Source: a virus
IMG/VR virus record: IMGVR_UViG_3300027797_000124
Coordinates: 1 to 25,446 of that record
DNA length: 25,446 nucleotides
Strand: one strand, 5' to 3'
Shown here: positions 7,701-25,446 of the stretch, in pieces
Numbering within the stretch: position 1 is the first letter of the stretch
Layout of the letters: the number at the start of each line of letters is the position of its first letter
Notes under the pieces: model-generated
The model's input: only the letters and a program-made list of their open reading frames with translations
Told to the model about the DNA's origin: nothing
The model's database searches: none
Made by a program: the position numbers and the translations under genes

Positions 7701-10700
7701 CCATAGAGCCACCAGATATTGGTCTATCATATACAGGTTCTGTCATTGACTTACTAGCAAAACCATTAATTCTTTTTTGTTGGAAATCTCTGCCACGCAT
7801 AAGTGCGGTTCCCATAGGATGAACAATCTTGCCTCTAGCTTCATCTCCTGGAGATGTTACACCTGCAATTAAGCCACCACCAGATACAGCAAGAAGTTCC
7901 TTGCTAGATACCGCAATAGGCTGACCAGTTACAGTATTAGCAACCATATCATCAATACCATTTGACAATACATTACCCATTCCATCAACCTTAACAGTTG
8001 CACTTGTTCCCATACCACCTGCTGCAGATGAGATACTTTGAATATTTGGCATTACAATTCCTGGTCTTATAGCTCCAGAAGGCATGATTAAACCTGTTGA
8101 GCGTACTCTAGAGCCTTGTCCACTAGATGTTGGTGCTCCAGTACCCTTTGGATCGTAAGACCTTACAGTTACGTTTGGAAGGTTTGATGGCAATGCACGT
8201 TGACCAAGAGTGTCATAGAAGTCACCCTTTAGTCTTGCTTCCATACCTGCTGCAACAGCTATTGGCATTCCTGGAGAAGTTCTTGATGGGAATAGTCTTG
8301 CTAGTGTCATCATTACCCTTGCACCATTTGCAGTATTTGGATGAACACCATCTGCCATCTTTGTTAGTTCAGCTTGAACTACTGGTACTGGTAATCCAGA
8401 TGCAGCAGCAACTCTTGAGACGGTAGAAGGATTTAATAACCCACCAATATCTTTTCTGCTATTTAAAGTCTCAAGGAATACGTTGTAAACCTCAGAGTCT
8501 TTCATTAAGTTGGCTGCAGCCCACACCTTTTCATATACCCCGTTAGCATTTGTGGTAGATGGGTTAATGTGTGCAAGTACGTCTCGAATATAGTAAGATG
8601 CAAGCCTATCTGATTCAGGGATACCTGCTGCTCGGAGTGCAGAAACAATAGCCTCATATTCAGCTGGCTTTGTAGCCCAATTAGGAATACCTTGCAATAC
8701 ACCTGCATATGCTTTAGGTGATGCTGCTTTCTTTGCCCAAGAAGTTGTTTCAGTGGCATACCCATTTATACGACCACCTGATTGCATTCCAAGATATTCT
8801 TGTTCTAGCCAAGACATTTTATCTTGAGTAAATGGATCTTTTGAGTTTATTGTATCCGTTCCAGTACTATAACCAAGAGACTTCTTTGTCTTTGGATCTT
8901 TATATGCAACGTAACTTGATCTTTTTTCTGTAATAATCTTTCTACCGTCTTTTGAGTAACCAATAACTTTTCCTGTTTTATCTGTTATTGGAGCCCAACC
9001 AAGTTCCATCAATCCCTTGTCAGACATTCTTGCTCTAGTATCATAAAACTTTCCAGACTCTAGATACTTCTTAAACCTACTTTTAATCTGAGGCATATTT
9101 TTTGCTTGACTATAAACATCTTGATCTCCAATTTTTCCTTTAAGTCGCTCAACTCTAGAAGCAATGCCAGATTGAATGCTTTGAGCAATACCACTTGGAT
9201 CCTTTTCACCATAAATCCCAAGAACCTGAGCCATTCTATCTTCTGCAATATCTGCTCTAAAAGCCTTTGCAAGTGACTTTGGATCTACGTCTCTATTTTG
9301 TGCAAGCCTGGTATTAATCTGTGAAGGAATAGATAAACCAAATGGAAGAGTAACAAGACCCTGACCACTTCTAACTGGATTAACAATATGTGCAAATGCA
9401 TATCCACTTGGTACGGTTCCTCCAAACCTAGCAGACTTTGCTGCATATCCATTAATTCTTCCACCAGACTGACGACCCTGCACATGAATTATTGGTTGAC
9501 GTGTTGCTAAATCAGAGGATACTCCAGTAATTGTTCCTTGTGGTCTATATGTGAGGATTTCATTAATTTCATCTGGTACTTCCTTTACCCAGCTATCACG
9601 ATATTTTGGATATGGTGCACCTGTTGATGGATCTCCCATCGAAATATCTCTACCTTGAGTATTTGGTCCTGCTGTAAAATCATACATAACTGGCGATGAA
9701 CCATATTTTGATTCTTTTCCAGTAGCCCTACTTCTTTCTATGTCATCAAAGAACCTACCCTTTTCGGTGTCTCTATTATGTACTCCTCTATACAACTTTC
9801 TGTATGCAGAAGCCGAAAATCTACTTACCCCACCCTTCATTCCTCTAGGACCATATGCAGCTCCCATGTTATCGGAGGCAAATGAGGCAAAGTCATTAAA
9901 TGATATTTCCATTCCATAAAGACTTCCATAATCACCAGTCTGAATGGCTGTAAGCATTGCAAGTTGAGCTTCCTTAGACATTTCTCCAGACATTCCTGGA
10001 TTAAGAAGAGATCCTCTCATCATCTTTGTTCCTTCTGGAACAGAACGCATTATGCTAAGTAACTCAGCATATCTTTCTGCGTCAAACTTTTCAGAATCAG
10101 TCCAACGACCTTTTACATTCTTTCTTCTTCTAAAGTAGTCAAGTTCTCCACCAATCCACTTGTAAATAGTTTCATATTCTTTATCTGTTTTTTGGAATGG
10201 TTCACGATACGATTGTTCTGCATTGCTTTGAAGTCTCATTCTCTTAGTATCAGAACCTACTAGTGACATATCATCTTCGTCAAGGTAGAACTCTTGCATT
10301 AGTTTTTGTGTTCTCATAGAGATCATTGAGGTTAAAAGTTCTTGATAGCTCTTTGAAGCACCACCAGATTTTTTAATAGCATAATTATTAAGATTTTTAA
10401 GAAGTTCTGGTGAACCTTGAGTTGCTAGATTAATTGACTGAGCAATATAGTTTCCAGAGTTAAGATTACCCAATACGTTATTTAAATATCCAATAGCATG
10501 AGAATATGCCTTTTCAGATCCCATTTTTCCATAAGCCTGTGTTCCTGCACGATCCAAACCTGCAGTATCTGGATTATAGGAGAAATCATTTAGTGCCTTG
10601 GATGTTCTTCTTTGGTTTCCAGTAGCATCAGTAAATAGGTTTGCAGTATTATCAAGCATAACAATTTTTCCACTGGATATCCCAAAATTACCACTATGAG

Positions 10701-13326
10701 TGTCTGCATTTCCAAGTATCTGTGAAGCAAGCATTCCTTCTATTGCCTTTTTATTAACAACACCCTTAGCAAAAGGAGTAGGTCTGTTAGGTTGAGCAGA
10801 CTTGCTGTCAAATAGTTTCTCTCCAGTTTTTAACCCTTGAACAAAACTTGAGCCAAGAACAGGCATAGTTTTATTTCCTGTGTTTGCGTTGTATACTCTT
10901 TGATCTATACCAGTAACATTGCTACCAAACAATCCACTTCTATATAATTGGCTAAATACTGCTTCTGCAACCATAGCATTTGTATTTATGCCCCTGTTAT
11001 TTGATATCTGCTTATAGAACATTCCCGATTGTCTATCTAATCCAGCAATAGGGTTGTCTTCATTTACACCACCCATTCCCACAAGTTTAAATGGGTTAAC
11101 ATCAACAGTAGGGACACCTGGAAAAGATCGTGAAGCGTATCCTGGCATTCTGCCACCCTTTTGGAATCGTGGTGCAGATTGAAAGTTCATCTGATCTAAT
11201 GTTCCAGAATACTTAGCTGCTGCTTTTTTGTTTACAACATATTCTCCTGGCTCAAGCATTGCTGGAACCTTATCTCCATTTCCAGAACCTGGAACAAAAG
11301 CACTACCACCACTTTGTAATTTTTTTGGTGGACCAGCAACATCAAGTCCACTTATTGCTGAGGGGAGTTTGGCAGATGCAACCTGTCTATTTAAAAATGC
11401 TGGATTTAAATTAATTGCTTCTACAAGATTTTGTCTATATAGTGCAAGTGCTTGATTAAGTCTTTCAACACTTGATCTTTCTATATCAAAAGAGTTTGTT
11501 AATTGTTCGGTAGCCTTAGAAGCCATAATCTGAGTGTCTGAAAGCATTTCAAACTTTTGTGTTGGAAGACCAGCCATCCTTCTTCCAAGATTAACCATTC
11601 CCATAGCACCTTTGCCAACATATCCAAGGAAGTTAGAAAAAATACCAACCATCATAATGATTGGACCAGCAACTGCAGTTAAGCCAACAGCTACCTTAAT
11701 AAATGATTTAATGGGTTTTGGAAGATTTTGAAAAAACTCAATAGCTTTTCCAATCTTTCCAGTAATGTTTTCAAGAATAGGTATAATCGAGGTTGTAATG
11801 GATTCACCAACACTAAGGAACTGTGCTTTAATTCCTTCAACTGCACGTTGGAAACGCTTTGAAGAGCTATTCATCAATGTTTCCATTTCCTGATAAGCGG
11901 TGGCTGCAAGCTCCTTACTTGATTGACCCATCAATCCAAGTACAGCATTTGTCTGGGAGGCACTTGCATTTAAGTTATCAAAAAGTGCTGAGATACGAGC
12001 AAACTGATATTTACCAAAAACATTTTCAATTACCTGTGCTTTTCCAAAATCGTCAAGGAGTTGTAGCTGCTGCTGGAAAGCAATAATTGTTGGCATAAGC
12101 TGTCCACGATTTGCTTGAACAATTCCATTAATATCAATTCCATACTGTTTTGCGGTTGCTGTTGCCTGTTTTGTTGGATTAATAAGAGATGCCATACCAG
12201 ACTTTAAAGCATTTGCACCTTCTGCTGCAGAAATACCACCTTCTTTAAGGGCTACCATCAACAAGGATAAATCTTTTACGTCACCACCTAGTGATTTTAC
12301 AACTGGTCCAGCTTTAGGAATTGCTGTTGTCAAGTCCTGCAAAGAAAGTGAAGTTTGGTTTTCTACTGCGTTAAGAAAGTTAACAGACTCAGCAAGGTCA
12401 TCGGTGCTGATCTTAAATGCATTCTGTAAAGATAGAGTTGTTTTCATTGCGTCTTGATTTGAAACATCACCAAGAACAGCAAGGCGAGTTGTTTCCCTTA
12501 GTGAGGCAAGAAGCTTTTGTCCCTCAAGACCTGTGGCTGCGAGGTCTGCAGCTAAAGATGCTGTTTCTTTTGCTGCAATACCAAATGACTTTGAAAATTC
12601 TATAGCAAGATTACGAACATCACTAACCATTTGATCAGTGGCATCAGATGTGGTGTTCATTAAGTCGCTTCCGTAAACCTTTTGGAAACGTGTAAGTTCT
12701 GCATCTACTTCACGGAATATTTTAGATACAGCATTTCCATAAATAGTTAAAGGAACTGTAAGACCAACGGTAATTTGGCGACCAGCCCACTGGGTGTTCT
12801 TACCAAAGTTAATTAAATGTGTTGTACCGTCTTGCACAAGGCTATTAAATATTGACCACTGTTTTTGAGATACAGCCATTTGAGTATTAAAGTCTTTAAG
12901 GTTAATGGTTGCAGGGGTAATCATCATACCCATCTGCTTTCCATCCATGCCCTTGCCAAGAGTCACAAGCTGTGACATTTCTCTGGCTACTTCACGAACA
13001 GCAAGTTTGTGAGCATTTGATGATTTTGTAAAAGCCCCAATAGCTTCTTGGGCATATTGCCTTAATGTAAGTTTTTGCTTTAAAAGAGACTGCCCAAACT
13101 GGTCAACAGAGTCAGTAAGTTCAACCATCTTGGCATTCCATCCACCAATTTTTCCAAGGTCGGATGCAAACGAAGAAGCTAAACTTGATTTTAATCCTAC
13201 AGACTGTTTGTCAAGATTTTGTAATGTATTATTTAATATGTTTGCTTCAGCGGTAAGCTTTTGCATTTGTCCAATAACTGGACCAAAATTAGCTGAATAA
13301 TTAAATTGGGCATTAATATTAGCCAT
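4753..13326 (-). CDS. Tail tape measure protein with embedded enzyme-like domains
   Basis: A 2857-residue protein that should set tail length and be ejected ahead of the DNA. The N-terminal ~600 residues match the TP901-type tape measure pattern: a helical start, then 'ETASLAADLAATGLEGQKLL' and 'GISAAEGANALKSGMASLINP'. A hydrophobic segment lies near 542-568 ('GLTAVAGPIIMMVGIFSNFL') and another near 1975-2000. Between about 720 and 1850 there are non-helical blocks not expected in a tape measure: a kinase-like domain (~735-1020), an ADP-ribosyltransferase-like domain (~1040-1285) and two unassigned regions (~1290-1515, ~1520-1850), each announced by a GGRINGYA-like motif. Long charged coiled coils fill ~2350-2545. 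The C-terminus has Gly/Met-rich repeats. A 'PAML..GEYV' motif occurs near 690 and near 2710, as in many tape measures. ATG at 13326 overlaps the end of the chaperone frame by eight bases. Confidence 0.93.
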   Translation of the reverse strand: MANINAQFNYSANFGPVIGQMQKLTAEANILNNTLQNLDKQSVGLKSSLASSFASDLGKIGGWNAKMVELTDSVDQFGQSLLKQKLTLRQYAQEAIGAFTKSSNAHKLAVREVAREMSQLVTLGKGMDGKQMGMMITPATINLKDFNTQMAVSQKQWSIFNSLVQDGTTHLINFGKNTQWAGRQITVGLTVPLTIYGNAVSKIFREVDAELTRFQKVYGSDLMNTTSDATDQMVSDVRNLAIEFSKSFGIAAKETASLAADLAATGLEGQKLLASLRETTRLAVLGDVSNQDAMKTTLSLQNAFKISTDDLAESVNFLNAVENQTSLSLQDLTTAIPKAGPVVKSLGGDVKDLSLLMVALKEGGISAAEGANALKSGMASLINPTKQATATAKQYGIDINGIVQANRGQLMPTIIAFQQQLQLLDDFGKAQVIENVFGKYQFARISALFDNLNASASQTNAVLGLMGQSSKELAATAYQEMETLMNSSSKRFQRAVEGIKAQFLSVGESITTSIIPILENITGKIGKAIEFFQNLPKPIKSFIKVAVGLTAVAGPIIMMVGIFSNFLGYVGKGAMGMVNLGRRMAGLPTQKFEMLSDTQIMASKATEQLTNSFDIERSSVERLNQALALYRQNLVEAINLNPAFLNRQVASAKLPSAISGLDVAGPPKKLQSGGSAFVPGSGNGDKVPAMLEPGEYVVNKKAAAKYSGTLDQMNFQSAPRFQKGGRMPGYASRSFPGVPTVDVNPFKLVGMGGVNEDNPIAGLDRQSGMFYKQISNNRGINTNAMVAEAVFSQLYRSGLFGSNVTGIDQRVYNANTGNKTMPVLGSSFVQGLKTGEKLFDSKSAQPNRPTPFAKGVVNKKAIEGMLASQILGNADTHSGNFGISSGKIVMLDNTANLFTDATGNQRRTSKALNDFSYNPDTAGLDRAGTQAYGKMGSEKAYSHAIGYLNNVLGNLNSGNYIAQSINLATQGSPELLKNLNNYAIKKSGGASKSYQELLTSMISMRTQKLMQEFYLDEDDMSLVGSDTKRMRLQSNAEQSYREPFQKTDKEYETIYKWIGGELDYFRRRKNVKGRWTDSEKFDAERYAELLSIMRSVPEGTKMMRGSLLNPGMSGEMSKEAQLAMLTAIQTGDYGSLYGMEISFNDFASFASDNMGAAYGPRGMKGGVSRFSASAYRKLYRGVHNRDTEKGRFFDDIERSRATGKESKYGSSPVMYDFTAGPNTQGRDISMGDPSTGAPYPKYRDSWVKEVPDEINEILTYRPQGTITGVSSDLATRQPIIHVQGRQSGGRINGYAAKSARFGGTVPSGYAFAHIVNPVRSGQGLVTLPFGLSIPSQINTRLAQNRDVDPKSLAKAFRADIAEDRMAQVLGIYGEKDPSGIAQSIQSGIASRVERLKGKIGDQDVYSQAKNMPQIKSRFKKYLESGKFYDTRARMSDKGLMELGWAPITDKTGKVIGYSKDGRKIITEKRSSYVAYKDPKTKKSLGYSTGTDTINSKDPFTQDKMSWLEQEYLGMQSGGRINGYATETTSWAKKAASPKAYAGVLQGIPNWATKPAEYEAIVSALRAAGIPESDRLASYYIRDVLAHINPSTTNANGVYEKVWAAANLMKDSEVYNVFLETLNSRKDIGGLLNPSTVSRVAAASGLPVPVVQAELTKMADGVHPNTANGARVMMTLARLFPSRTSPGMPIAVAAGMEARLKGDFYDTLGQRALPSNLPNVTVRSYDPKGTGAPTSSGQGSRVRSTGLIMPSGAIRPGIVMPNIQSISSAAGGMGTSATVKVDGMGNVLSNGIDDMVANTVTGQPIAVSSKELLAVSGGGLIAGVTSPGDEARGKIVHPMGTALMRGRDFQQKRINGFASKSMTEPVYDRPISGGSMGQFGGNAFMLMSVMQQMSFAINQFTSDAQNGGGKFVAAMNLVLTSTQMMGSGVGDVLRGMANARKQNLNIISGLDVEGPSVKIDNRGKEMTRLSSGIGKLAGVAGKGMSLLGSMPVQIGLQVAIVALTKGIEIYQKAMERARLAGNGAFKEPTETAKLLGIELKSLTADTERYAKFAAATFGAQGRGAYDKTFAETIKKDYGDYLDILSKIKTKQEQVNQLTTVYASLIQRGVSGKDALDITAEIARQGQAISAFNEAQGNFSLNDTVGEAMKMQTDSLESQISIITEYSKTGAASQAAIYEALGATGSGIVDKFGRGFISTVGDLAGLESVFGKMIASGKSKEQVASQIGATLKAAFSIAAQDPIASNEAIDAIVANFEKADMSKVSTEIGKLAEEIGFGDFSNVGMFIDTGAFTKMGAESQKLFLTALQSGLGSELDKMLADGSLSDEERSALEQKALEAQALMKIDVEVDLQIDQTVKQLQSVQEELNKVYEIALKGKEEEIVAEGLRHEKTLKNLELESQRLQLKKETLSKNTEYYIKELQKEKEAEDYYARQRQTGLGGLKALSQGDVFGFIGAQMEAATTADQFGRERSMQTIQETSDAAQAKIDQELKGIEDRKAAEDARHEAEIKNINAEIEDLNKKKSAAALQLQEAVKLLEEAKALQPSASPADNKIYNEKVAQAYQLAGGAIDQAKAAAGFVDKNILSKELQVEMDTAQQKTKKALDSFYVDTDTAMQYIANGGKGGWEVVLKGMSDASKKIFNDVAKSLNIDSNSKQFISAANFLATAINSGTQVTANGNRVITLSNNPTLRQASGGYISGPGSATSDSIPAMLSNGEYVISASAVKAYGPQLMDRINTKRLAYGGMIGSMPGMSSAPGMANGGFVGSMPSASSAPGMAAGGFIGNSAPSFPKYNIPSAGGGMSPSPIAQMARGGMMSGSASDNSSSYNFNFNGAGMDMVMHHVNKQMGGRINSNSRRIG
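4996..5103 (-). repeat. Two tandem 18-residue Gly/Met/Ser/Pro repeats at tape measure C-terminus
   Basis: Two 54-base units (5103-5050 and 5049-4996) encode GGMIGSMPGMSSAPGMAN and GGFVGSMPSASSAPGMAA. A third, degenerate unit starts at 4995 with GGFIGNSAP. They begin near residue 2742, after the last 'PAML..GEYV' segment. Such low-complexity Gly/Met repeats probably form a flexible or hydrophobic tip (inference). Confidence 0.8.
7747..7782 (-). repeat. Linker motif copy 4 (QQKRINGFASKS)
   Basis: Residues 1849-1860 of the tape measure. It is the most diverged copy of the linker: the two glycines are replaced, but R-I-N-G-(F/Y)-A-S-K-S is kept. It marks the return to ordinary helical tape measure sequence. 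Confidence 0.65.
8746..8784 (-). repeat. Linker motif copy 3 (QSGGRINGYATET)
   Basis: Residues 1515-1527 of the tape measure. The first ten residues are identical to copy 2. It separates the unassigned block ~1290-1515 from the next helical block. Confidence 0.75.
9433..9471 (-). repeat. Linker motif copy 2 (QSGGRINGYAAKS)
   Basis: Residues 1286-1298 of the tape measure, directly after the ADP-ribosyltransferase-like domain. The codons differ from copy 3 at several third positions, so the protein motif is better conserved than the DNA. Confidence 0.75.
9472..10209 (-). other. ADP-ribosyltransferase-like domain inside the tape measure (about residues 1040-1285)
   Basis: The order of elements matches mono-ADP-ribosyltransferase toxins of the R-S-E class. 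Leading helices ('EYETIYKWIGGELDYF', 'ERYAELLSIMRSVPEG') are followed by a strand with arginine ('TKMMRGSLL', R1104). Next comes an 'ISFNDFASFAS' segment (S1142 and following) at the place of the S-T-S motif. Near the end, 'DEINEILTYRPQGTITGV' (E1253, E1256) sits at the place of the catalytic E-x-E strand and 'PRGT' turn. The first glutamate of the classic ExE is replaced by Ile1254, but E1256 keeps the catalytic position. A real or degenerate transferase is likely; the target is unknown. Confidence 0.55.
10267..11124 (-). other. Kinase-like domain inside the tape measure (about residues 735-1020)
   Basis: The residues line up with the protein/lipid kinase core. There is a strand with lysine ('GMFYKQ', K772, codon 11011-11013). 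Sixteen residues on, a helix carries glutamate ('MVAEAVFSQLYR', E788). The catalytic loop is 'GNADTHSGNFG' (D875, H877, N880). Twelve residues after N880, the metal-binding aspartate sits in 'GKIVMLDNTA' (D892). The D-x-H-x-x-N spacing is that of PI3/4-kinase and HipA-like families; the short loop before D892 is closer to PI3/4-kinases. Substrate and activity are unknown. It could be a degenerate fold with a purely structural role, although the key residues are intact. Confidence 0.6.
11125..11163 (-). repeat. Linker motif copy 1 (QKGGRMPGYASRS)
   Basis: Residues 722-734 of the tape measure, just before the kinase-like domain and just after a 'PAML.PGEYVV' segment. It shares Q-x-G-G-R-x-x-G-Y-A-x-x-S with copies 2 and 3. 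Confidence 0.7.
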
Positions 13327-14104: not shown

Positions 14105-14797
14105 TTATCCAACGTAGACACGATCGATAACTTTTCCGTAAATTGCGTTTCCATCAACTGCTGTTGAAGAGTTGGACGGAAGTAAGCGGAATGTTACTGG
14201 GAACACTGTGGCTTCGTTACGCTTGATACCTACAGAAACTGTTTCCATAGATAGAGCACGAGAACCTAAGTAAATACGTTCTACGACTGTTCCACCGTTA
14301 GGGCTTGAGGTTAGAAGTGATTCTGGACCAGGACCTACGATAAGAATAGAACGCTCTACTGGAGCATATCCTAGAGCACCACCATTAAGATCCAAGATTT
14401 GTGTCTTGCCCTTAGATGAAGCGTGAGTGCTTGTTGCTCTAAGGTCTGAATCTTTTCCACCAAGAACAACAAGGAAGTTTTCCAATGTTGCTTCTGTAAG
14501 AGTAGTCTTAACCATAACTTTCTGACCTTGCTTGTAAATCTTAGCAACGTCTAGAAGTTGGTCAACCTGCACTTCACCGTAATCTGGTTCGAATGAAAAG
14601 TCTACACCTTCCGATGTAAAACCAACGTGATCAAACGCTGTATCATTTACGTTAGATGGGTTCTGGTATGTACCTGCTGTGTTGTCAGCATATGTTGCTG
14701 GCGACTTAGGAATATCAGTGATTGTTTTTTCAGTACTGTCTGCACCGATGTAAAGAACACCAGCACCAACAATAATGTTTTTTGAATTATTAGCCAT
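14105..14797 (-). CDS. Major tail tube protein
   Basis: A 230-residue protein starting MANNSKNIIVGAGVLYIG. The gene order (after the tail terminator, before the chaperones) and beta-rich content identify it as the tube subunit. The N-terminal 'VGAGVLYIGADS' and the segment 'VGFTSEGVDFSFEPDYGEVQVDQLLD' are typical of tail tube proteins of this group, which form stacked hexamer rings. The C-terminal half keeps the pattern, with 'METVSVGIKRNEATVFPVTFRLLPS'. A strong AGGAGGTG lies about 12 bases upstream of the ATG, rather far, with an A-run between. A strong terminator follows, fitting a highly expressed gene. No extra Ig-like decoration domain is seen. Confidence 0.88.
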   Translation of the reverse strand: MANNSKNIIVGAGVLYIGADSTEKTITDIPKSPATYADNTAGTYQNPSNVNDTAFDHVGFTSEGVDFSFEPDYGEVQVDQLLDVAKIYKQGQKVMVKTTLTEATLENFLVVLGGKDSDLRATSTHASSKGKTQILDLNGGALGYAPVERSILIVGPGPESLLTSSPNGGTVVERIYLGSRALSMETVSVGIKRNEATVFPVTFRLLPSNSSTAVDGNAIYGKVIDRVYVG

Positions 14798-16042: not shown

Positions 16043-16507
16043 TTAAACAGCTACTAATGACTGTATTTCTTGACGTTTTAATACCGTTTCATATTCTAGG
16101 ACTTTTCCTAAGTAATCAAGAAGGGGGGTAGTTCCAGATGGTTCAAATATTGTTGATCCGTTTAAATCAGCTGTCGATCCACTTAAGCCACCTGCGGTAT
16201 TTTGAATATAATCTTCTGTCCAGATAACACCCTCAGAGTTTCTTATTGCAACAACACGAAACTCGGTGGAGATTGGCTCTGCTGTTCTAATTTTTATAAA
16301 GTCTTTTGTTATTGTGATATAGTCCTTTATACCAACGTCTGCTGAGTTTCCACCAAGTTGTGATCCAAGAATACCACGAGCATAGCATGGTACTGTTTTT
16401 TGAAGAGCCCAAGATTTTGTAATCATACCGTTTGTTGCATTACGGGTGGTGGTTGGCTCATAAATATCAGCCTTCATAGTATATGTTGAATGGGCTAAAC
16501 AAGACAT
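16043..16507 (-). CDS. Head-tail stopper protein
   Basis: A 154-residue protein starting MSCLAHSTYTMKADIYEPT. It is placed directly after the adaptor, and its ATG touches the adaptor stop. Its beta-barrel pattern fits the SPP1 gp16-like stopper that closes the head: 'MKADIYEPTTTRNATNGMI', 'KTVPCYARGILGS', 'FIKIRTAEPISTEFRVVAIRN'. An acidic segment 'EGVIWTEDYIQN' and a helical C-terminus with 'YETVLKRQEIQSLVAV' complete it. The 'A-DIY-P---R---G-I---W' signature near the N-terminus is common in phage stopper proteins. Confidence 0.65.
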   Translation of the reverse strand: MSCLAHSTYTMKADIYEPTTTRNATNGMITKSWALQKTVPCYARGILGSQLGGNSADVGIKDYITITKDFIKIRTAEPISTEFRVVAIRNSEGVIWTEDYIQNTAGGLSGSTADLNGSTIFEPSGTTPLLDYLGKVLEYETVLKRQEIQSLVAV

Positions 16508-17695
16508 TTAAATCGCCTTTAAATTCCAAACCTTATATTGAGAAAGTAATGAGTCTACATATAGGTTTCCAGTACCATTTAACATTCCATCTGCAAACTG
16601 GATGTTAAAGGAATCATTCTGAATTGACTTTAAACCCTTGTTTCTATAAATAGAATCATTACACATAAAGTCATTAATAAGTTCGTATACAGCAGTTTTA
16701 ACATCTTCAGGAACTGCCTTCCATCCATATTCTCCACGAACTAAATATGAAGAGTCTTTTCCAAAGTATGATGGGTTTATCAAAGGATTCTGGTCTACCC
16801 ATTCAGTAATGTTTACACCCTCTGAGACTACCTTAATTCCAAACTTGCTTGGTGCTATTGCTACAGTTGCCCCAAGTAAATCAACAGGGGTGTCTTCTGT
16901 AGAATCATATATTACAAGGTCATCAGAGGTTATCTTGTCAAATGATTCAATTCTTTGACCCAAATGCAAAAGGTCGGTATTTTGTCCATAAGCACCTACT
17001 GTCTTATATTCAAACTTAAACTCTGAGTTTGTATAAGCATTAATCAAATACCTTGCCTTTCTTTCAAGTTTTTCAACAAAGTCTTGAGTTTGTTGGTCTA
17101 ATACATTAGATCCATTAAGTGCAAAGTTTTCAAAATAATCAGATATTTCAGCAAATGTTGCATATGGTCTTCTAATTGTAACGTCAATATCGTCAGATGA
17201 ATATCCAGATAATTGGATTGACTGTATTTCAATTTGCAAAGATCTATCATATTTGGCAACATCTGAGTTTAGGCTAATATTAAAGCTGGTTCCTGCATGT
17301 CTTAAAACTTTATGAACCCCTGATTGAGTTCCACTAGTATTAATTTTTGTTCCAGCAATTGCATTTGCATAAGTGGTTGCAACATTAAAAGTATTTGCAC
17401 CTGCATATATAGCATAATAAACAGTATTTGCGGTTAAACCAGTTGGCAAGGCTCCAGTTGTAGAAAACTTAATTGCATCGCCATTAATATATGTGTGATT
17501 TTCCTGAGTAATTACTGCAGGGGTGGCAATACTAATGGTGCTTGTAATTCCAAGATCTACTGGGAAAACAACTTCTTCATATTGAAGATTGCTATCATTT
17601 ACATTATCATACACACTGTAAACTAGGCTTACTGTATTTTGTGGTGCTGTATAAGTAAACTCAACAGTCCCTAAATCATTTACTAATAATTCCAT
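16508..17695 (-). CDS. Head-tail adaptor with inserted beta module
   Basis: A 395-residue protein. The part from about residue 180 has the helical head-tail adaptor pattern: 'ATFAEISDYFENF', 'DFVEKLERKARYLINAYTNSEF' and 'VPEDVKTAVYELINDFMCNDS'. The first ~50 residues and ~133-175 look like one Ig-like beta domain split in two. The piece between (residues ~52-131, about 17303-17542) is the small module 'HTYINGDAIKFSTTGALPTG', 'TVYYAIYAGANTFNVA', which I recall from tail fibres and other virion proteins. It would be displayed on the neck. Typical adaptors are about half this length. The ATG directly follows the upstream stop. Confidence 0.65.
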   Translation of the reverse strand: MELLVNDLGTVEFTYTAPQNTVSLVYSVYDNVNDSNLQYEEVVFPVDLGITSTISIATPAVITQENHTYINGDAIKFSTTGALPTGLTANTVYYAIYAGANTFNVATTYANAIAGTKINTSGTQSGVHKVLRHAGTSFNISLNSDVAKYDRSLQIEIQSIQLSGYSSDDIDVTIRRPYATFAEISDYFENFALNGSNVLDQQTQDFVEKLERKARYLINAYTNSEFKFEYKTVGAYGQNTDLLHLGQRIESFDKITSDDLVIYDSTEDTPVDLLGATVAIAPSKFGIKVVSEGVNITEWVDQNPLINPSYFGKDSSYLVRGEYGWKAVPEDVKTAVYELINDFMCNDSIYRNKGLKSIQNDSFNIQFADGMLNGTGNLYVDSLLSQYKVWNLKAI

Positions 17696-18112
17696 TTAAA
17701 TACCATAGAAAGATTTTACTTCTTCCTTGGTAGCCTCCCTTACTTCATCTGCTTGGTTAGCTAATATTTGCTCTGCCAGCGATTTGTTAACAAGGACAAA
17801 GGGCTCTTCCATATCAAACTTAACACCGTTTCCAGCGTAATATCCACCACGTTTAATAGCCATAGTTAAAAGAACTTTTTCTTCTTTTTTAGATTCTACT
17901 TTTGCTTCTTGTATTTTTACTTTAATCTCTTCTTTTGTAGGACCGTCTTCATAGTCAAACAATGATTTTGATGATTCTTCATACATTTCCCAAGTAACTT
18001 TAGCCTCTTCAATAGCTTCAATAATATCTTGTTTTCTTGCATTCTTTGATATTTCAATATCAAATGATAGACATAAGCCCTTAAGGTCCCCGATTGTTTT
18101 ACTAGATAACAT
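17696..18112 (-). CDS. Small head-associated protein with SAP/HeH-like N-terminus
   Basis: A 138-residue protein starting MLSSKTIGDLKGLCLSFDIE. The first ~35 residues match the SAP/HeH (Rho-N-like) helix-extended-helix pattern ('TIGDLKGLCLSFDI', 'ARKQDIIEAIEE'), often used for nucleic acid contact. A charged linker rich in Glu and Lys follows. The C-terminal half ('AIKRGGYYAGNGVKFDMEEPFVLVNKSLAEQI') resembles small head-completion proteins found between capsid and adaptor genes. It has a strong AGGAGG six bases before the ATG and follows the capsid terminator and a likely promoter. The function is not known. Confidence 0.6.
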   Translation of the reverse strand: MLSSKTIGDLKGLCLSFDIEISKNARKQDIIEAIEEAKVTWEMYEESSKSLFDYEDGPTKEEIKVKIQEAKVESKKEEKVLLTMAIKRGGYYAGNGVKFDMEEPFVLVNKSLAEQILANQADEVREATKEEVKSFYGI

Positions 18113-18191: not shown

Positions 18192-19256
18192 CTAAGCAGT
18201 TGGTACTGCGTAGGCTACTGCCGACTTTTCTTCTAGTGCTACACCCATACGGACGTAGACTGTGTACTCTACAGAGTCCTTTCGTGGTTGGAACTCACGA
18301 TGTACTGTAACATCTCTCTGGAAACCCCAAATGCGGTTTGAAGGAAGAGTTAGGTCTACATAGTCTTCTGGATACAAAGGAACTTCTTGAACTGGAAGAC
18401 CAAAGATGGTGTATTGAGCACCAGCTGGACCGCCAATTCTAGGAGTAACTCCGTCAATTACACGAGTAGCAACATCGTAAGGAACTGAAGTTCCGTCAGT
18501 TGTATTAACTGTGCGAAGCTCTGTTAGCAATTCCTGAATATGCTTGCTGTTCATGTAGAACTTAAGATCCTGACGGCGAGCCTTGAACTTACGAGGCATT
18601 GCATTGTAGATTGCTTCGATTGCATCAAGAGTCAACTTTGCGGAAGATCCATCGCCTGAATCAGGAGTAGCTTCCCAGATGCTTGTCATGGTTGCAGCAG
18701 CTGCTGCAGCTTCGTGAGCACCTGCGTAGTTAGTATCCTTGATCTGACGGATAAATCCTGCAAGAGTATTGTCATATGTACCGTTACCAGAATCACCTGG
18801 ACGACCATTAATTGCAATATCTTCCAAGTCGTTTCCGAATTGAGTTGCCATCAAACGTACAACGTGATCCTCTAGAGACGCACCTTCAATAGAGTCCTCT
18901 AGGGATTCTGTTGATAGTTCGTACTGTAGACGGAACTTTGTTGTTGTAAGTTCGATCTTTGTGAATGCTGGAGCAGCGTTTGCACCTGTAACTTCGGCTT
19001 GTGTAGCTTTTGTTACAAGACGTGAACCAACACGGATCTTATCCAATTCCATAGTATTTCCACGCATCGTTACCTTGCGACCATCGTTAGCTAGAACCAT
19101 CTGATCAAAGATGTATTCGATAAACTGTGTAGATTGTGTTGGATTAAGAACACCACCTGCGTCATTTGAGTTTCCTTGTGCTGTCATAGCACCAGGAGCT
19201 GTTAGTGGAGAAAGAACTGTACCGCTTGCTGCGGCTTTTTCTAAAATATCACTCAT
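18192..19256 (-). CDS. Major capsid protein (HK97 fold)
   Basis: A 354-residue protein, the expected size for an HK97-fold capsid subunit without a long delta domain. Typical elements are present: a helical/E-loop region after 'QSTQFIEYIFDQMVLAND', an A-domain helix and strand ('QDLKFYMNSKHIQELLTELR'), 'IFGLPVQEVPLYPED' and the final strands 'HREFQPRKDSVEYTVYVRMG'. The first ~30 residues are a low-complexity stretch ('AAASGTVLSPLTAPGAMTAQ') that may be disordered. It follows the protease/scaffold gene and is followed by a terminator. A Shine-Dalgarno-like AAGGTAGG lies about 10 bases upstream. No chemical cross-linking lysine can be assigned from sequence alone. Confidence 0.92.
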   Translation of the reverse strand: MSDILEKAAASGTVLSPLTAPGAMTAQGNSNDAGGVLNPTQSTQFIEYIFDQMVLANDGRKVTMRGNTMELDKIRVGSRLVTKATQAEVTGANAAPAFTKIELTTTKFRLQYELSTESLEDSIEGASLEDHVVRLMATQFGNDLEDIAINGRPGDSGNGTYDNTLAGFIRQIKDTNYAGAHEAAAAAATMTSIWEATPDSGDGSSAKLTLDAIEAIYNAMPRKFKARRQDLKFYMNSKHIQELLTELRTVNTTDGTSVPYDVATRVIDGVTPRIGGPAGAQYTIFGLPVQEVPLYPEDYVDLTLPSNRIWGFQRDVTVHREFQPRKDSVEYTVYVRMGVALEEKSAVAYAVPTA

Positions 19257-19282: not shown

Positions 19283-19855
19283 CTAATTTAAGTATTGCGA
19301 GGAACTGAGGAAGCGTCCCCCCCATACAGAATCTGACTTCTGTATAGTTGTTTCTGTGGAACTCTCAAGTTCCCCAGATTTCTTTACAGCGGTATCGTTT
19401 TCTACAGATTCCAATCTTCCATTAATTGTTTGTACTGCATTTACGATATCCGCCAAACCTTTGTTGATCTCTTCTAAACGAGAATCATTTTCTACAAGCT
19501 TATCGGTTAAAGCTTTTGTTACTTCTGCAACAGTGTTTACAACACCATTAACAGCAGCAGCATTTGTTTCGCCACTCTTTGTAAGAGCTTCGCCAACAAA
19601 ATTTTTGATTTCACTAAGAGTCTTTTCAAGGTCAGTCGCCTCACCACTATCGGTGGAAGCGTCATCTGCAGATCCCTCTGTATCTACGGATGTTTCGACT
19701 GTATCTTCTGCTACTTCAACTTCATCAGACTTTGCAATTTCTTCTACCGCTGGAGCTTCTTCAGCTTCAACAATTTCATCAACTACAACTTCTTCTGCTA
19801 CTTCTACAATTTCTTCAACTGTAGCGTCTTCTGCAACTTCGTTATTTTCAGTCAT
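19283..19855 (-). CDS. Nested scaffold protein from an internal start in the protease gene
   Basis: Inside the protease gene and in the same frame, AAGGAGGTG (19869-19861) lies seven bases (counted from GGAGG) before ATG at 19855 (Met410 of the long protein). It is stronger than the site of the full-length gene. The product would be 190 residues: an acidic stretch (MTENNEVAEDATVEEIVEVA and on), a coiled coil ('ENDSRLEEINKGLADIVNAV') and a C-terminal basic/aromatic tail ('SDSVWGGRFLSSSQYLN') that could contact capsid subunits. This is the arrangement of the nested Nu3 scaffold within lambda gene C. Making both products would supply many scaffold copies per protease. The start is inferred from sequence only. 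Confidence 0.68.
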   Translation of the reverse strand: MTENNEVAEDATVEEIVEVAEEVVVDEIVEAEEAPAVEEIAKSDEVEVAEDTVETSVDTEGSADDASTDSGEATDLEKTLSEIKNFVGEALTKSGETNAAAVNGVVNTVAEVTKALTDKLVENDSRLEEINKGLADIVNAVQTINGRLESVENDTAVKKSGELESSTETTIQKSDSVWGGRFLSSSQYLN

Positions 19856-21082
19856 ATCAACACCTCCTTCATTTATTTGTGTGGCAACTAACTTTGCGTC
19901 ATTTGCCTCATTCACTACTGTGTTAGGTAGAGAAACTTCTTTTTGTACCCCAATAGATTTAAGGACTTTAACTGTCCAAGATCTAAGCGTACTCATTTTA
20001 TGTCCTACAACTGTTTTAGACGGCTTCCAAGAGTTTCCGTCTTTTTGATAAACTCTGATGGTTACCGCTGGGTCTTCTGGTGTCCCTGTAATTGTAACAC
20101 TAGAATTTGGTACTTTAATTTTACCATTAGTTACTACTCTTGTTACTTTACCTCTTGCGGTACCGCCTGAAGAGTTCCACTGAACAAAATCTCCAGAAGA
20201 AAATGATCCTTTGTACATCTCATTTTTTCTTTTATTTTTACGCTCATTTTCGTCATAAACAGACTTTTCTTCAGTCTGAATGTCTGAAAATATTCTATTT
20301 TGCTTTGGGTACTTTTTGGGGGTATCTTCACTTGTAATAGTTCCAGGATTATCTGCCTTATGTAATTCAACTATTTTTGACATTGCTTCTTCAACATTTG
20401 ATTTTGTGATTTCGTCAATCCAGCCAATAGATGGAAGATCGGAACTGCATGAAGAGCATGAATATTTTTCTTCATTTGAAAGGTAAGCCATTTCTTCTGC
20501 TTCACACCAGAATACATTTTGGATATTGGACTTGGAAAACATTCCATCAACAACATCACCATCGATTGTTTTCTGAATAGAAAAGATATTAGCAAACTGA
20601 TTAGCAGGTGAGTCAACAAGTGATAGTTCTACTAAATCATATTCTTTAATGATACGAACCGTGTTGTTTGTTTCTTCATCTAATTCAGTATCTGTTTCTT
20701 TAATTGCACCGCCGATTGAAAAACCAGTGAGTGTACCATCAAGAACCATCTCCCAGATGTCTTGAGCACCCTTAGAAACATAGGTATCTACAAATACTCC
20801 CGTATATTGCTTCTTTGTTTTTGGGTCGAAAAAAGTGTCTGATCTAAAAGAAACAACCTTTCCTGCTGGAATAGGTTGGTGCATCAATCTTACATTACCA
20901 CGGAAGTTTGCAAAAGCTTTTTCTGATGCTTCTGGAAGCACTCTATCACCTTGTTTGTCAATATTATCAAGTGTTGCAAAGCCAGAAACAATACGCTTTT
21001 CTTCATCAATCTTTGAGATTGGCATGGTCAAGTTGACGCTGTTACCATTCATAGAAAGGGAAGCCTTTTGTAAATTAATCAT
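19283..21082 (-). CDS. Capsid maturation protease fused to Tudor-like and scaffold regions
   Basis: A 599-residue protein. Residues ~15-170 are an XkdF/S78-type prohead protease: 'IVSGFATLDNIDKQGDRVLP', 'NVRLMHQPIPAGKVVSF' with likely catalytic H68, and 'DGTLTGFSIGGAI' with likely nucleophile S122. Residues ~190-222 hold C193, C209 and C212, a possible small metal-binding knuckle. Residues ~295-369 match the Hva1-type Tudor domain ('SGDFVQWNSSGGTARGKVTR' to 'VGHKMSTLRSW'). Residues ~411-480 are very acidic and ~485-562 form a coiled coil, both as in scaffolds. Met410 has a strong Shine-Dalgarno sequence, pointing to a separate scaffold product. ATG at 21082 has only a weak AAAGTG; Met11 is an alternative. 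Confidence 0.87.
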   Translation of the reverse strand: MINLQKASLSMNGNSVNLTMPISKIDEEKRIVSGFATLDNIDKQGDRVLPEASEKAFANFRGNVRLMHQPIPAGKVVSFRSDTFFDPKTKKQYTGVFVDTYVSKGAQDIWEMVLDGTLTGFSIGGAIKETDTELDEETNNTVRIIKEYDLVELSLVDSPANQFANIFSIQKTIDGDVVDGMFSKSNIQNVFWCEAEEMAYLSNEEKYSCSSCSSDLPSIGWIDEITKSNVEEAMSKIVELHKADNPGTITSEDTPKKYPKQNRIFSDIQTEEKSVYDENERKNKRKNEMYKGSFSSGDFVQWNSSGGTARGKVTRVVTNGKIKVPNSSVTITGTPEDPAVTIRVYQKDGNSWKPSKTVVGHKMSTLRSWTVKVLKSIGVQKEVSLPNTVVNEANDAKLVATQINEGGVDMTENNEVAEDATVEEIVEVAEEVVVDEIVEAEEAPAVEEIAKSDEVEVAEDTVETSVDTEGSADDASTDSGEATDLEKTLSEIKNFVGEALTKSGETNAAAVNGVVNTVAEVTKALTDKLVENDSRLEEINKGLADIVNAVQTINGRLESVENDTAVKKSGELESSTETTIQKSDSVWGGRFLSSSQYLN

Positions 21083-21111: not shown

Positions 21112-22746
21112 TTACGGTTGTTGTCTACCTTCGCCTTGGGCATTTCTTGCACCAGTTTGACCTTCGTCTGCCTGATTGTTTTGACGTTCTTGATCCCTCA
21201 ACCTATTTCCAGATGCCTGTGCTGTTTGTTCTGCAGCCTGTTGTCCTGTAAGTTGAACTGGCTCATCTCCCCCAGGAATGCCAGACATTCCCATTCTAGA
21301 CCTAACTTCATTAGGAAGAATTACCTGCATTCTTAGGTAACGCTCGTCAATCTTTGACTGAGTATCTTCATCTGTAAGGGTAAGCTCATTAAAGTTAAAC
21401 TTAAACATATCTGTCTTTTCAGAGATAATTGCAGTAATTCTTTTTTCTAGAGCGTCTTGTGCTGGACGAGTAACCTGTTCCTTAAAACTCTTGTCTGCTT
21501 CTTTAGCAGCAGCAAGTGAAAGACCTTCACCTGCACCAACTTTTGTCATTGGAACACGATGTGCCATAAGTATTTCTTGAAGATTAGACTTGCGGTACTT
21601 ATCAAATGATCCGTCTTGAATACCGTTTTCAACGGCTTCCATCTTAACTTCAACCTTAGAACCTGCTTCATCTCCAGGAAGAGGAACAATAAGTGTTCTA
21701 TGAGATTGACCACGAAGGTTATTCTGGAAGAACTCAAATAGCTTTGATTCGGCATCTCTGGAAAGTTTTGCTCCCTTAATCCAAAAAATATAACGTGGTG
21801 TTGCTTTGTTTTCAAAGTATTCTAAGTTAAACTTTGAAGCAAACTCATTACCTGCCATAGCGTTCTTTGCAGGAACAATAGCTGGAACACCATAATAATT
21901 GTTTGTTGGTGTGTAGTCAGCAAAGTGAATAATTTCATTTGGTCGTGGGTCTATGCCAATGGGAGCCGTTGTTTGATCCTCATCATGGAAGTTTTTAAAG
22001 AACGTAAACTTACCGCCAACAAGTTGAACAAAGCCATCACGAAGTCTACGAACACGCATTGTTGCAGCAGGAATATGACCAATGTATCCAATCTCACCAG
22101 TTGTTTTTCTACCAATTTCTAGATAACCATTTCCAGTTGTTGCATAATCAAGATAGACTTTTGTTAGAGTTTCTGTAAATGTTTCGTTATCATTTCTGGT
22201 GTCTAGCCATTCCAAAACATCTGCCTTTGCACGTTCCAGCTTTTTCCTAGACCTATTTAGCTTATCTGGATTATCTGACAGGTCTTCTAGCATCTGCTTA
22301 ACTTTAAGTGATGGTATTAAGTCATATCCTAGACCAACAATGTTTGTTACTTTTGCATTAATTGCAGCATAGTTAGCAGCAGAAACCTCATAGGTTTTGC
22401 CAAGGGCAATAAGATTATATGGTGGCTCTACTACATCAAAAAGACCATAGCCATATTGAAGGAAAACAAGTTGCTTTGACTCTGCATCATCACCGCTAAT
22501 TCCATTAACTGGTGTTGCATAAGTTGTAGATGAAACACCAATCTGTGCAGCTTTTTCAAGTTTTCTTTTAGTATTACGCTTAAAGTTTTGATTAATTCCA
22601 CGATACTTTAAAAGTTCTGGTGATGCTAGGCTAAACTCATCAACGGTTACAATCTCTGCACTCTTCTGCAAACTATCAATAGCAATGTCTCTTCCCCAAA
22701 TAGTATGACTTTGGGGTACTTCGTTATCTTCCACTCTTTCGCTCAT
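21112..22746 (-). CDS. Portal protein
   Basis: A 544-residue protein, taking ATG at 22746 (MSERVEDNEVPQSHT). The frame stays open to a TTG at 22848, but that would overlap the upstream gene by 125 bases and lacks support. The ATG has GGAAGGA about 11 bases upstream and leaves only a 23-base overlap. The protein matches PBSX/HK97-type portals: 'RGINQNFKRNTKRKLEKAAQ', the hub region ending 'VPAIVPAKNAMAGNEFASKFNLEYF', 'ATPRYIFWIKGAKLS', and the C-terminal crown with 'TDMFKFNFNELTLTDEDTQS'. The end is Gln/Gly/Arg-rich and probably flexible. It forms the dodecameric DNA entry ring of the head. The gene lies 29 bases before the protease. Confidence 0.9.
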   Translation of the reverse strand: MSERVEDNEVPQSHTIWGRDIAIDSLQKSAEIVTVDEFSLASPELLKYRGINQNFKRNTKRKLEKAAQIGVSSTTYATPVNGISGDDAESKQLVFLQYGYGLFDVVEPPYNLIALGKTYEVSAANYAAINAKVTNIVGLGYDLIPSLKVKQMLEDLSDNPDKLNRSRKKLERAKADVLEWLDTRNDNETFTETLTKVYLDYATTGNGYLEIGRKTTGEIGYIGHIPAATMRVRRLRDGFVQLVGGKFTFFKNFHDEDQTTAPIGIDPRPNEIIHFADYTPTNNYYGVPAIVPAKNAMAGNEFASKFNLEYFENKATPRYIFWIKGAKLSRDAESKLFEFFQNNLRGQSHRTLIVPLPGDEAGSKVEVKMEAVENGIQDGSFDKYRKSNLQEILMAHRVPMTKVGAGEGLSLAAAKEADKSFKEQVTRPAQDALEKRITAIISEKTDMFKFNFNELTLTDEDTQSKIDERYLRMQVILPNEVRSRMGMSGIPGGDEPVQLTGQQAAEQTAQASGNRLRDQERQNNQADEGQTGARNAQGEGRQQP

Positions 22747-23065
22747 TTGCAAAAATTTCCTTCCAGTTGTCGGTATCTCCGTAAGGGGTATAACCCTCAG
22801 CCATTCTGTCAATATCTTCTCTTGCCTGAGTATCACTAACTCTGCCAACTCCAGGCATAAACTTTGCTACACCATCTGGTTTACCCCAATATGCTGCTGC
22901 TTTTGCAAGAGAGTTCATCTTTCTAATATCATGTTTCATTGAAGGAACATTAAGTGTGTTGCCATCATCATCCTTAAATGGATCTCCATTTGGTAAGACC
23001 CAAACATAAATTCCGTATTCTGCGGTGGACTCAACCGCTTCTACACCTTTTTTAGTATTATTCAT
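22724..23065 (-). CDS. Conserved small portal-adjacent protein, function unknown
   Basis: A 113-residue protein whose gene overlaps the portal start by 23 bases. The segment 'YGIYVWVLPNGDPFKDDDGN' followed by 'IRKMNSLAKAAAYWGKPDG' and 'VSDTQAREDIDRMAEGYTP' is a pattern I recall beside the portal or terminase in many actinobacteriophages, where it has no assigned role. It is acidic and soluble, with no signal peptide or membrane segment. The ATG at 23065 has only a weak GTGG upstream. It might help portal or terminase assembly, judging by position only. Confidence 0.65.
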   Translation of the reverse strand: MNNTKKGVEAVESTAEYGIYVWVLPNGDPFKDDDGNTLNVPSMKHDIRKMNSLAKAAAYWGKPDGVAKFMPGVGRVSDTQAREDIDRMAEGYTPYGDTDNWKEIFANERKSGR

Positions 23066-23083
23066 ACCACTATGATACCATTT

Positions 23084-25446
23084 TTACTGTTCTGTTGGCA
23101 AGTACTGTGGCTGTATTTTACTGTTAATTTTATTTGGAAGAGATAGTACAGATATAGGTGATTGTGTTACGGTACCGCTTGAAATAGTGTAATATCGTGA
23201 ACCATAATTATATTTATATCCAGATGCTCCAGATACCCTAGTAAATGTAACAGTATAAGTTATGTTTGTAACATTATATAGAAATACTGCCTCTGGATCT
23301 AATGTAGTTACTTGATACAAATATCTTACTTCGTTACCCGTATCTATTAAGATTAGGTCTCCCTGCTCTATATATTTTGTACCAATCTTTAATCTTGAGT
23401 TATTTATTGAATTATTGCCGTAATTTAAGTCTTCAAAAATAAGGTCTTTATTGGCATTTACCTTGGCTGGCATATTAGAAGTTAGTGTAATTTTTGAATA
23501 ATCTGCAAAGTTTTGAACTGTGCTAACTGTGTAGTCTGAAGCAGCTCCATCAATAGATATTAACTTTGAACCTGCTAATATATACTGGCTGTTTGAAACA
23601 AATAGTGTATTTAAGGCATCTGACTGATCTACCGTGGTTTTTTCAAATGTGGGTCTTCCAGAACTTACTGCGTAAGTTACAGTATAGTTACTTACGGGAG
23701 ATGAGCCACCAGAAAGAGCGGTATATAATGGACCACCCATAGTATTGTCAATAAAGTAATCAATGTCCACAACATCAAAATTATCTAAGGTATCATCGCT
23801 TGTGTCTTTTAATTTAAACTTAGAGTTTGCAATTATTTTATATCCTGCCAAAGTTTCTCCAACTACCAAGTTGTAAAGATTTACTAATAAATCGTTAACA
23901 CTAAGCTTTTTGTCAAATATCATAAGTTGGTCAACATAGACCTCATTCTCAATTCCAGTTGTAGAACCCAAAATAATTTCTGTTGCATTTGACGAGTTAA
24001 TAACAATAGGGTCAGCAAATACCAAAGATATCATTTGCCATTGGTCTAGTTTTGCCAAAGACGATGTTGATCCATTTACATATCTAGTTGCACCAGTTAC
24101 GGTTGACATTTGACCAGTAGAAGAATTAATGCTTAACTGCAAGCTTCCAATCTTCAAAACATTATTTGACACGTTAGTTCCTGTTGGAATATAGCACATA
24201 AAGGAAACAGTACTTATGCCAGATGCTGACTGCATCATACCTGCGGTTCCATCTGTTATATCACTATCCGCTGTATATGTTCCAGTTGGTGCAAATCCAG
24301 TAAAAACAACATTATTTCCAGAAACAGAACTTATTGTTTTTTGCAAAAATGCAAACTGATTGGTACCATTTATTTCAGAAACCGAGACACTATCTCCTGC
24401 AACAAAGCGGTTGCCCGAAAGGGTATAGGTTGCGTTACCACCAGAAACTACAATATTTGTTATTGGAGAATAATTTTTAACTCCAGTAAAATCATGATTT
24501 ATTTTTGCATATGAGTCTTTTAGCTTTAAGCCAGAGCTAAATCCATTATAGAAAAATGGCATTTCAATAAGGTCTGGGATGTTACATTCATTTGACCTTA
24601 AGTATATTTTTGCTGGGTTACCGCCCTGAGAAGAGTTATTGTTTACATAATAGTTTGTTCCATCAAACTCCAGGTTATAGGAGAATAGTCTAAAGTAATT
24701 AAGATATGGTGGCTGATCCACTAGATCATCGGTGTTTAAGAAAAATTCAAAAGATAGGGTATCTACTGGATTTGTTGTTGCATTTTCTGCCTGAGTTACT
24801 TTTTTGTTTAACCAAGAACCAGATGTAATTACCCTATTTGTATAATCATTTGTATATCTTGTAGTTGATGATGTCTGTATACCGCCAGAAAGAGCTTTTT
24901 CTTTTAAGGTCATCTTTACTGTTTCAGAACCTAGAGGGGCACCAATTTCTACACGACAAGCACCTGTTGTTTCTGAAAGTGGAGGACATAGTGACTGTTG
25001 GTCAACGTCTATCTTTGAATAACCATATGATTTAATCTTAAACCTACGCTCTTCTTTATTTGGGGTTGCAGTGTAATAATGAATAAAACTACCACCCTCA
25101 ATCTCATCATATGTATCTAGAAGGGTAGAGTTATCTGCATGAATACCAACAATTTTTAGCAAGTTAGCATTTGAGACTATCTTTGAAGAATCTGACTCAC
25201 TAATATTATCTGAATCAAACCACAGGGCTTCAGATCCTATTCTTAAGTACGCTGCTGCAATATCTGGAAGAATTATTGTTGATGTTATGGCACTCCCAGC
25301 GGTAACTGGAAGGTAAAAAGCTTTTGATGTTCCGTTTAAAACCTTATAGTATCCTATGTAAAAATTTTCTGACGGAAGGTTTGTAAATAGTGTTTTTGGA
25401 GTTGCTTCTAAAGATGAAGATACTTTTAAATCTGAGTTGGCATCAA
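23084..25446 (-). CDS. Large beta-rich virion protein with LamG-like domain, C-terminal part (cut by right edge)
   Basis: The frame is open from the right edge to the stop at 23084 (786 complete codons) and no start is visible; a TTG at 25162 is merely internal. The 94 residues before that TTG are coherent protein ('LFTNLPSENFYIGYYKVLNG', 'AAAYLRIGSEALWFD'). A LamG/concanavalin A-like domain lies at about 23865-24215: 'VSFMCYIPTGTN', 'LDQWQMISLVFADPI', 'NEVYVDQLMIFDKKLSVNDLL'. A small beta module ('RFVAGDSVSVSEINGTNQFA') comes just before it. The rest is beta-rich with Ser/Thr/Asn linkers, like a tail fibre or minor tail protein. A host-binding or virion surface role is likely. Finding it directly upstream of the portal block is unusual. 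Confidence 0.7.
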   Translation of the reverse strand, partial: DANSDLKVSSSLEATPKTLFTNLPSENFYIGYYKVLNGTSKAFYLPVTAGSAITSTIILPDIAAAYLRIGSEALWFDSDNISESDSSKIVSNANLLKIVGIHADNSTLLDTYDEIEGGSFIHYYTATPNKEERRFKIKSYGYSKIDVDQQSLCPPLSETTGACRVEIGAPLGSETVKMTLKEKALSGGIQTSSTTRYTNDYTNRVITSGSWLNKKVTQAENATTNPVDTLSFEFFLNTDDLVDQPPYLNYFRLFSYNLEFDGTNYYVNNNSSQGGNPAKIYLRSNECNIPDLIEMPFFYNGFSSGLKLKDSYAKINHDFTGVKNYSPITNIVVSGGNATYTLSGNRFVAGDSVSVSEINGTNQFAFLQKTISSVSGNNVVFTGFAPTGTYTADSDITDGTAGMMQSASGISTVSFMCYIPTGTNVSNNVLKIGSLQLSINSSTGQMSTVTGATRYVNGSTSSLAKLDQWQMISLVFADPIVINSSNATEIILGSTTGIENEVYVDQLMIFDKKLSVNDLLVNLYNLVVGETLAGYKIIANSKFKLKDTSDDTLDNFDVVDIDYFIDNTMGGPLYTALSGGSSPVSNYTVTYAVSSGRPTFEKTTVDQSDALNTLFVSNSQYILAGSKLISIDGAASDYTVSTVQNFADYSKITLTSNMPAKVNANKDLIFEDLNYGNNSINNSRLKIGTKYIEQGDLILIDTGNEVRYLYQVTTLDPEAVFLYNVTNITYTVTFTRVSGASGYKYNYGSRYYTISSGTVTQSPISVLSLPNKINSKIQPQYLPTEQ

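Follow-up and report, generated by a model that had tools for sequence, protein, structure and literature searches.

Phage neck proteins are usually regarded as conserved plumbing. The locus described here raises the question of what a beta module of phage-fibre type does inside one of them. The first-pass annotation of the window, by which we mean the whole stretch of viral DNA analysed (25,446 nucleotides of IMG/VR record IMGVR_UViG_3300027797_000124), had placed such a module at 17303-17542 in a head-tail adaptor gene. On the minus strand these positions correspond to codons 52-131 of a 395-aa open reading frame (ORF; 16508-17695), and the TVYYAI motif quoted for the module is present.

The product of 16508-17695 is a head-tail adaptor, as judged from its position after the capsid gene, its predicted core fold and the annotated syntenic genes of Streptomyces phages. 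A PHROGs search matched residues 296-393 to the head-tail adaptor family phrog_442 (4.5e-9), and tblastn with the adaptor ORF matched Streptomyces phage genes, several of them annotated as head-to-tail adaptor. The head-tail cluster on the minus strand consists of portal (21112-22848), prohead protease (19283-21082), major capsid protein (18192-19256; Phage_capsid PF05065, 6.8e-11; phrog_1623, 1.6e-70), a small gene (17696-18112), the adaptor, three genes and the tail-tube protein (14105-14797), which places the adaptor in the neck cluster between the capsid and tail-tube genes. The small gene encodes a Rho_N-like protein (Rho_N, 1.1e-4, at 22.6 bits below the Pfam cut-off of 24.9; phrog_9487, 3.6e-15). 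The gene after the adaptor (16043-16507, minus strand) is a stopper candidate; it matched phrog_10465 of unknown function (2.7e-8) and head closure Hc1 at 0.0098 only, and the gene that follows the adaptor in phage Elmer is annotated as head-to-tail stopper. An NCBIfam search of six proteins gave no match. From the protease onward Wofford and Annadreamy have the same gene order as the window, and in Beuffert, Comrade and Muntaha additional genes precede the adaptor. In all five Streptomyces phages compared, which all belong to the Stanwilliamsviridae, the adaptor lies between the capsid and major tail protein genes.

Three other minus-strand genes of the window were also inspected. The prohead protease has its S78 protease domain at residues 29-171 and, further downstream, an Hva1_TUDOR domain (residues 297-343; 7.2e-8, which clears the Pfam cut-off). 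The 2857-aa tape measure protein (4753-13326) has PhageMin_Tail at residues 239-438 and otherwise no Pfam family at E<=0.01. A 692-aa protein encoded upstream of the portal gene (23084-25162) matched nothing in Pfam at E<=1 and in PHROGs nothing better than about 0.1.

The structure of the adaptor was predicted with AlphaFold2 from 100 aligned sequences (mean pLDDT 84.3, pTM 0.74); an earlier model from 16 sequences (A1; pLDDT 46.3) was set aside. The N-terminal half of an Ig-like domain comprises residues 1-49 (17549-17695; strands 2-4, 11-30 and 35-43) and its C-terminal half residues 132-176 (17168-17302; strands 135-142, 151-161 and 164-175). The inserted module, which we call type I, lies between them at residues 52-131 (17303-17542), and the core follows with residues 177-395 plus the stop codon (16508-17167). 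In the model, residues about 50-132 form a separate barrel in a loop of the N-terminal Ig-like domain, with pLDDT values of 84-95 in blocks of ten. The claim that the module splits this domain is thus borne out by the model, in which the segment is a domain of its own and not an integral part of a single one, and alignment with module-less relatives gives the same split, both Ig-like halves being collinear with them. The limits first proposed, 52-131, were roughly right, the true edges being about 50-132. We regard the nested insertion in the head-tail adaptor as genuine and well-bounded.

Searches of the model with Foldseek returned the neck chains of DT57C and T5 as top matches among solved structures (E 8e-4 and 1.1e-3). 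In the viral set the first match was a 305-residue protein, which judging by its length lacks the module, and the matches also included the Wofford adaptor and tail fibres. VIA-align matches spanned nearly all of each of the three parts. Superposition of core residues 176-390 on the T5 and DT57C neck chains gave Z 9.7-9.8 over 166 residues (rmsd 4.5 A), and the RcGTA adaptor aligned from residue 148 with Z 8.4-9.2; the R4C adaptor chain was absent among the VIA-align rows listed. The predicted core thus shares its fold with the adaptors of T5 (p144), DT57C and RcGTA (Rcc01688), and both core fold and sequence place the protein with the T5 p144/HK97 gp6-type adaptors. According to the model it also has the Ig-like N-terminal domain that marks the R4C type. 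The T5 adaptor has 170 residues; the window's differs from it by an additional Ig-like domain (about 95 residues) at the N-terminus and by the barrel.

For residues 46-134, superposition on the FCCH domains of ubiquitin E1 enzymes (UBA1, UBA6) reached Z 8.9 over 75 residues (2.3 A), and the T1 and FCWL1 tail-tube chains followed with Z 8.1-8.2, among them the outer domain of T1 gp41 (9l0f; 77 residues, 2.4 A, Z 8.2). The top VIA-align rows therefore describe the predicted module as an FCCH/T1-like barrel (Z 8.1-8.9, 74-77 residues). Ig and FN3 chains (CTLA-4, FN3, C3) matched 81-90 residues spread over positions 1 to about 177 with Z 7.6-8.4. Roughly 90 residues stay unaligned in these superpositions, in keeping with the size of the module; that the module is the part skipped follows from the counts of aligned residues, the output giving the first and last residue only. 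Values of Z 8-9 for the module and the Ig part are modest, and common arrangements also score in this range; the core, for its part, superposes on T5 and DT57C no closer than 4.5 A.

No solved structure was matched significantly by sequence, whether the query was the module, the entire protein or one of the profiles A6, A7 and A8; the best match of A6 was an endosialidase (E 0.98), and the T1 gp41 chain was absent from the matches with the module. The Pfam family End_beta_barrel of endosialidases (PF12195) scored 18.2 bits with the module and 15.2 with the protein, below its gathering score of 35 bits. Pfam E1_FCCH (PF16190, gathering score 29.5 bits) did not match the type I module at E<=1, and the E1 family was absent from the Pfam matches of the adaptor protein. 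We rejected the idea that the module is a piece of an E1-related enzyme, as the predicted barrel fold is all that the two have in common.

The 80-aa stretch alone matched tail fiber phrog_38233 (2.8e-9), baseplate wedge phrog_2885 (1.5e-6) and phrog_30390 of unknown function (8.4e-10) in PHROGs, and tblastn found it in 97 phage records at E<=0.01 (best 57% identity, E 1e-20). At the level of sequence these matches are confirmed to be far above chance. The type I motif GD..F.TTGALPTGL...YYV...TSGTQSG.H has 13 invariant positions in 44 modules, partly owing to the search patterns with which the modules were fetched. Searches of the window with profiles of the type I module and of a second type (see below) found a second copy of neither, and no step in G+C content marks the module, which has 0.33-0.36 compared with 0.31-0.40 in its surroundings.

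Among the matches listed, 67 non-adaptor ORFs of 233-2176 residues carry type I modules. A PHROGs scan covered 19 of them (L117 was scanned without module), and 14 of the 19 matched a PHROG named tail fiber, often via the module itself. Parts outside the module identified tail or collar proteins (L110, L113, L116, L125, L142), the major tail protein phrog_158 (L130, L145), the virion proteins phrog_3287 (L127) and phrog_3398 (L134) and, in L122, head closure Hc3 (phrog_578, 1.8e-81; type I module at residues 170-246). The module had been described as belonging mainly to fibres and decoration proteins; the family reaches further, to tail-tube proteins and the neck protein Hc3. The L122 ORF (2642-4441) belongs to another phage group; its product is a neck protein of the Hc3 (stabilisation) type with the module inside, and the 25 phage records listed, out of 60, match it from residue 216 on only. 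L126 resembles L122 by eye.

It had been suggested that related phages be searched for adaptors lacking residues 52-131, and alignment revealed several, e.g. L041. In a first IMG/VR scan, all 24 relatives (58-85% identity) had the type I module, and none of five Streptomyces phage adaptors analysed in full (290-302 residues) had it. A core-only IMG/VR scan then covered 80 of 88 relatives, and a further scan with L069 added adaptors; a genome contig search confirmed none of its 36 pattern matches as relatives. After removal of identical copies the window's adaptor and its relatives comprised 67 distinct sequences. Four rows had been dropped beforehand: L049 and L062 are cut off at the N-terminus, L002 is fused with the ORF that follows, and L045 is truncated. 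Alignment A5 replaced A4, in which the N-termini of Streptomyces-type rows were misplaced; in A5 such rows start at or just before the core. The Ig loop holds no module in 41 of the 67 adaptors, type I in 16 and a different module, type II, in ten. Type II occupies the same loop and starts ATVTAASGNGTTITYTASNTFAVGD in most cases; a later scan found three more distinct type II adaptors. Module-less adaptors, which have a short loop at the site and are otherwise collinear in the N-terminal domain by alignment, include L041 (62% identical outside the module), L055-L061, L063-L074 and L201-L209 as well as 31 Streptomyces-type adaptors (L025-L029 and L075-L100, some being the same phages). Among the 162 adaptor ORFs collected in total (70 without module, 66 type I, 26 type II) are overlapping contig copies and cut-off ORFs, so that these counts are not frequencies; the IMG/VR scans took at most 80 loci each by short patterns and therefore give no unbiased frequency.

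The profiles of the two module types align weakly (probability 8.6, E 0.0039), and we therefore do not claim common descent. A likeness of type II to FCCH is suggested by a Pfam E1_FCCH match of 16.1 bits (0.012), under the cut-off of 29.5 bits.

Some adaptors show other arrangements. L212 (1445-2686) and L213 encode a 414-aa adaptor with an empty Ig loop and, where the Ig-like domain passes into the core, a different insertion of ~100 residues. The Streptomyces-type adaptor of L091 (2341-3240) combines, by eye, an N-terminal domain of the Comrade/Annadreamy kind with a core of the Wofford kind. In L002 (629-2257) the adaptor and the next neck gene form a single 543-aa ORF, which may reflect either a fusion or an error in sequencing.

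A rooted tree was calculated for 51 adaptors with the modules cut out; L223, L228 and L230 were added, and L091, L096 and all but five of the other Streptomyces-type rows were left out. Adaptors with type I modules form one group in this tree (100/99) and in the 67-row tree (99/98). The module-less L041, a long branch in both trees, is sister to the type I clade in the 51-row tree (89/99), and its placement is not settled in the 67-row tree. The loop states require at least three changes on the 51-row tree, of which well-supported branches alone force two, both concerning type II; the three changes counted by parsimony on this sequence tree could include losses. A single clade for all type II adaptors was rejected on the 51-row tree (log-likelihood 103 lower, p-AU 8e-8) in a test run after the 67-row tree had been inspected. 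Two lineages have type II; their modules are 76-89% identical, their other parts only 48-53%. These values come from the comparison of L210 with eight other type II adaptors; outside its module L210 is 86% identical to the module-less L201, L202 and L209. DNA windows of L210 against L223 and L048 showed the same contrast between module and rest.

Exchange is also evident within type I. Within the window's clade, the adaptors of L031 and L033 show 95% identity outside the module, with dN values of 0.021 for the Ig part, 0.019 for the core and 0.249 for the module, and their DNA windows are 61-75% identical where they consist mostly of module and 87-100% elsewhere. Long and short forms of the type I module require three changes on the tree of the remaining adaptor, whereas in the module tree all long forms fall into one supported group (98/95). 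Module exchange through recombination would be the simplest reading of these sequence patterns; in the case of L031 the contig may alternatively be a chimeric assembly. We regard the Ig loop as a recurrent site of insertion and exchange because of the at least three changes on the tree, the presence of type II in two lineages and the type I swap. Taken as sequence comparisons, these data show insertion, absence in relatives, recurrent gain and swapping. Module dN/dS ranged from 0 to 0.52 over 11 pairs and was the highest of the three regions in six; in the other five (L034/L035, L040/L015, L040/L019, L015/L019 and L037/L038) it was not.

We favour, with a probability of roughly 0.6, the interpretation that the protein is an adaptor with a T5-type core whose Ig-like loop takes up and exchanges modules, and that the barrel serves as a weak surface-contact module at the neck rim. 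In this reading the adaptor combines the T5-type core with an extra N-terminal Ig-like domain, and modules enter and are exchanged in a loop of that domain, after the strand that ends near residue 43 and before the one that starts near 135. The lineage of the window has there gained its ~80-residue barrel of phage fibre/tail-tube type, the loop of other lineages being empty or holding the second module type. As far as the accessible parts of the reports go, the adaptors of R4C, RcGTA and T5 are dodecamers on the portal with an attachment domain, those of R4C, RcGTA and Milano bind the capsid through peripheral beta domains, and the attachment domain of the twelvefold roseophage R4C adaptor (vBDshSR4C_004) is N-terminal, Ig-like and peripheral. 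The window's Ig-like domain is predicted to be N-terminal too; the inserted barrel sets it apart from R4C, for which the available portion of the report describes none. By analogy with the twelvefold state and the peripheral domains of R4C, RcGTA, T5 and Milano, twelve barrel copies would ring the neck at its outer rim, where they would act as weak, exchangeable contacts, probably for glycans; we infer both their position on the ring and their ligand. From what is available of the respective sources, residues 16-94 of T1 gp41 form an outward Ig-like domain set into the tube fold, likewise a nested insertion but on the tail tube instead of a neck protein; glycan-binding Ig-like domains are reported for Douge; and the necks of 936 lactococcal phages carry host-binding modules, the carbohydrate-binding modules of their neck passage structure belonging to a separate collar protein with fibres and not to an adaptor insertion. 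Against such a role, the R4C authors considered it unlikely that a domain so close to the head serves adsorption.

The barrel could instead be structural, its copies bracing the adaptor through contact with the capsid vertex or with one another, like the attachment domains of R4C, RcGTA and Milano. The capsid contacts of solved adaptors through peripheral beta domains, as far as described in those reports, would fit this, as would a host domain that is Ig-like and N-terminal like that of R4C. However, the barrel is missing from related adaptors that share the core and the Ig-like domain, and it has been swapped while the remaining adaptor stayed nearly identical. The connection of head and tail thus probably does not depend on the barrel, and since the module is both kept, as its dN/dS values indicate, and swapped, we rank surface contact first and bracing, although unlikely, second.

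Abundant fibre-type barrels might also recombine into permissive surface loops as tolerated mobile passengers with no selected role in the neck. The scatter of the family over fibres, tail-tube proteins and Hc3 and the repeated insertions at one permissive loop are what such passengers would leave, but all 24 first-scan relatives keep the module, and its dN/dS values speak against a mere passenger, though upkeep of the fold alone would give the like; we consider this explanation improbable. The presence of the segment in these same 24 relatives, together with the fact that parsimony counts changes and not directions, could even suggest that the N-terminal domain contained it from ancient times and other lineages have lost it. 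Its absence from the outgroup, from most branches and from L041, the sister in the rooted tree, the collinear N-terminal domain of module-less relatives and the separate entry of type II make this very improbable indeed.

An exchangeable surface-contact module at the neck rim thus remains our preferred reading. The component parts are of known kinds, and their combination and the repeated use of one loop appear new within the open-licence literature searched, as no earlier description of an adaptor containing a nested FCCH-type barrel was found among the top-ranked papers. It is tempting, albeit doubtful, to go further and see in the Ig-like domain a dedicated socket for interchangeable binding modules; the neck would then join fibres and tail tube as a third adhesion surface that can be tuned. 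Two module types in one adaptor loop, at least three changes of state and a swap at 95% identity are the behaviour expected of adhesion parts. The adaptors of L210 and L202, of L031 and L033, and of the window's clade and L041 offer natural pairs, with and without a module or with swapped modules, in which the effect of neck decoration on infection could be studied.
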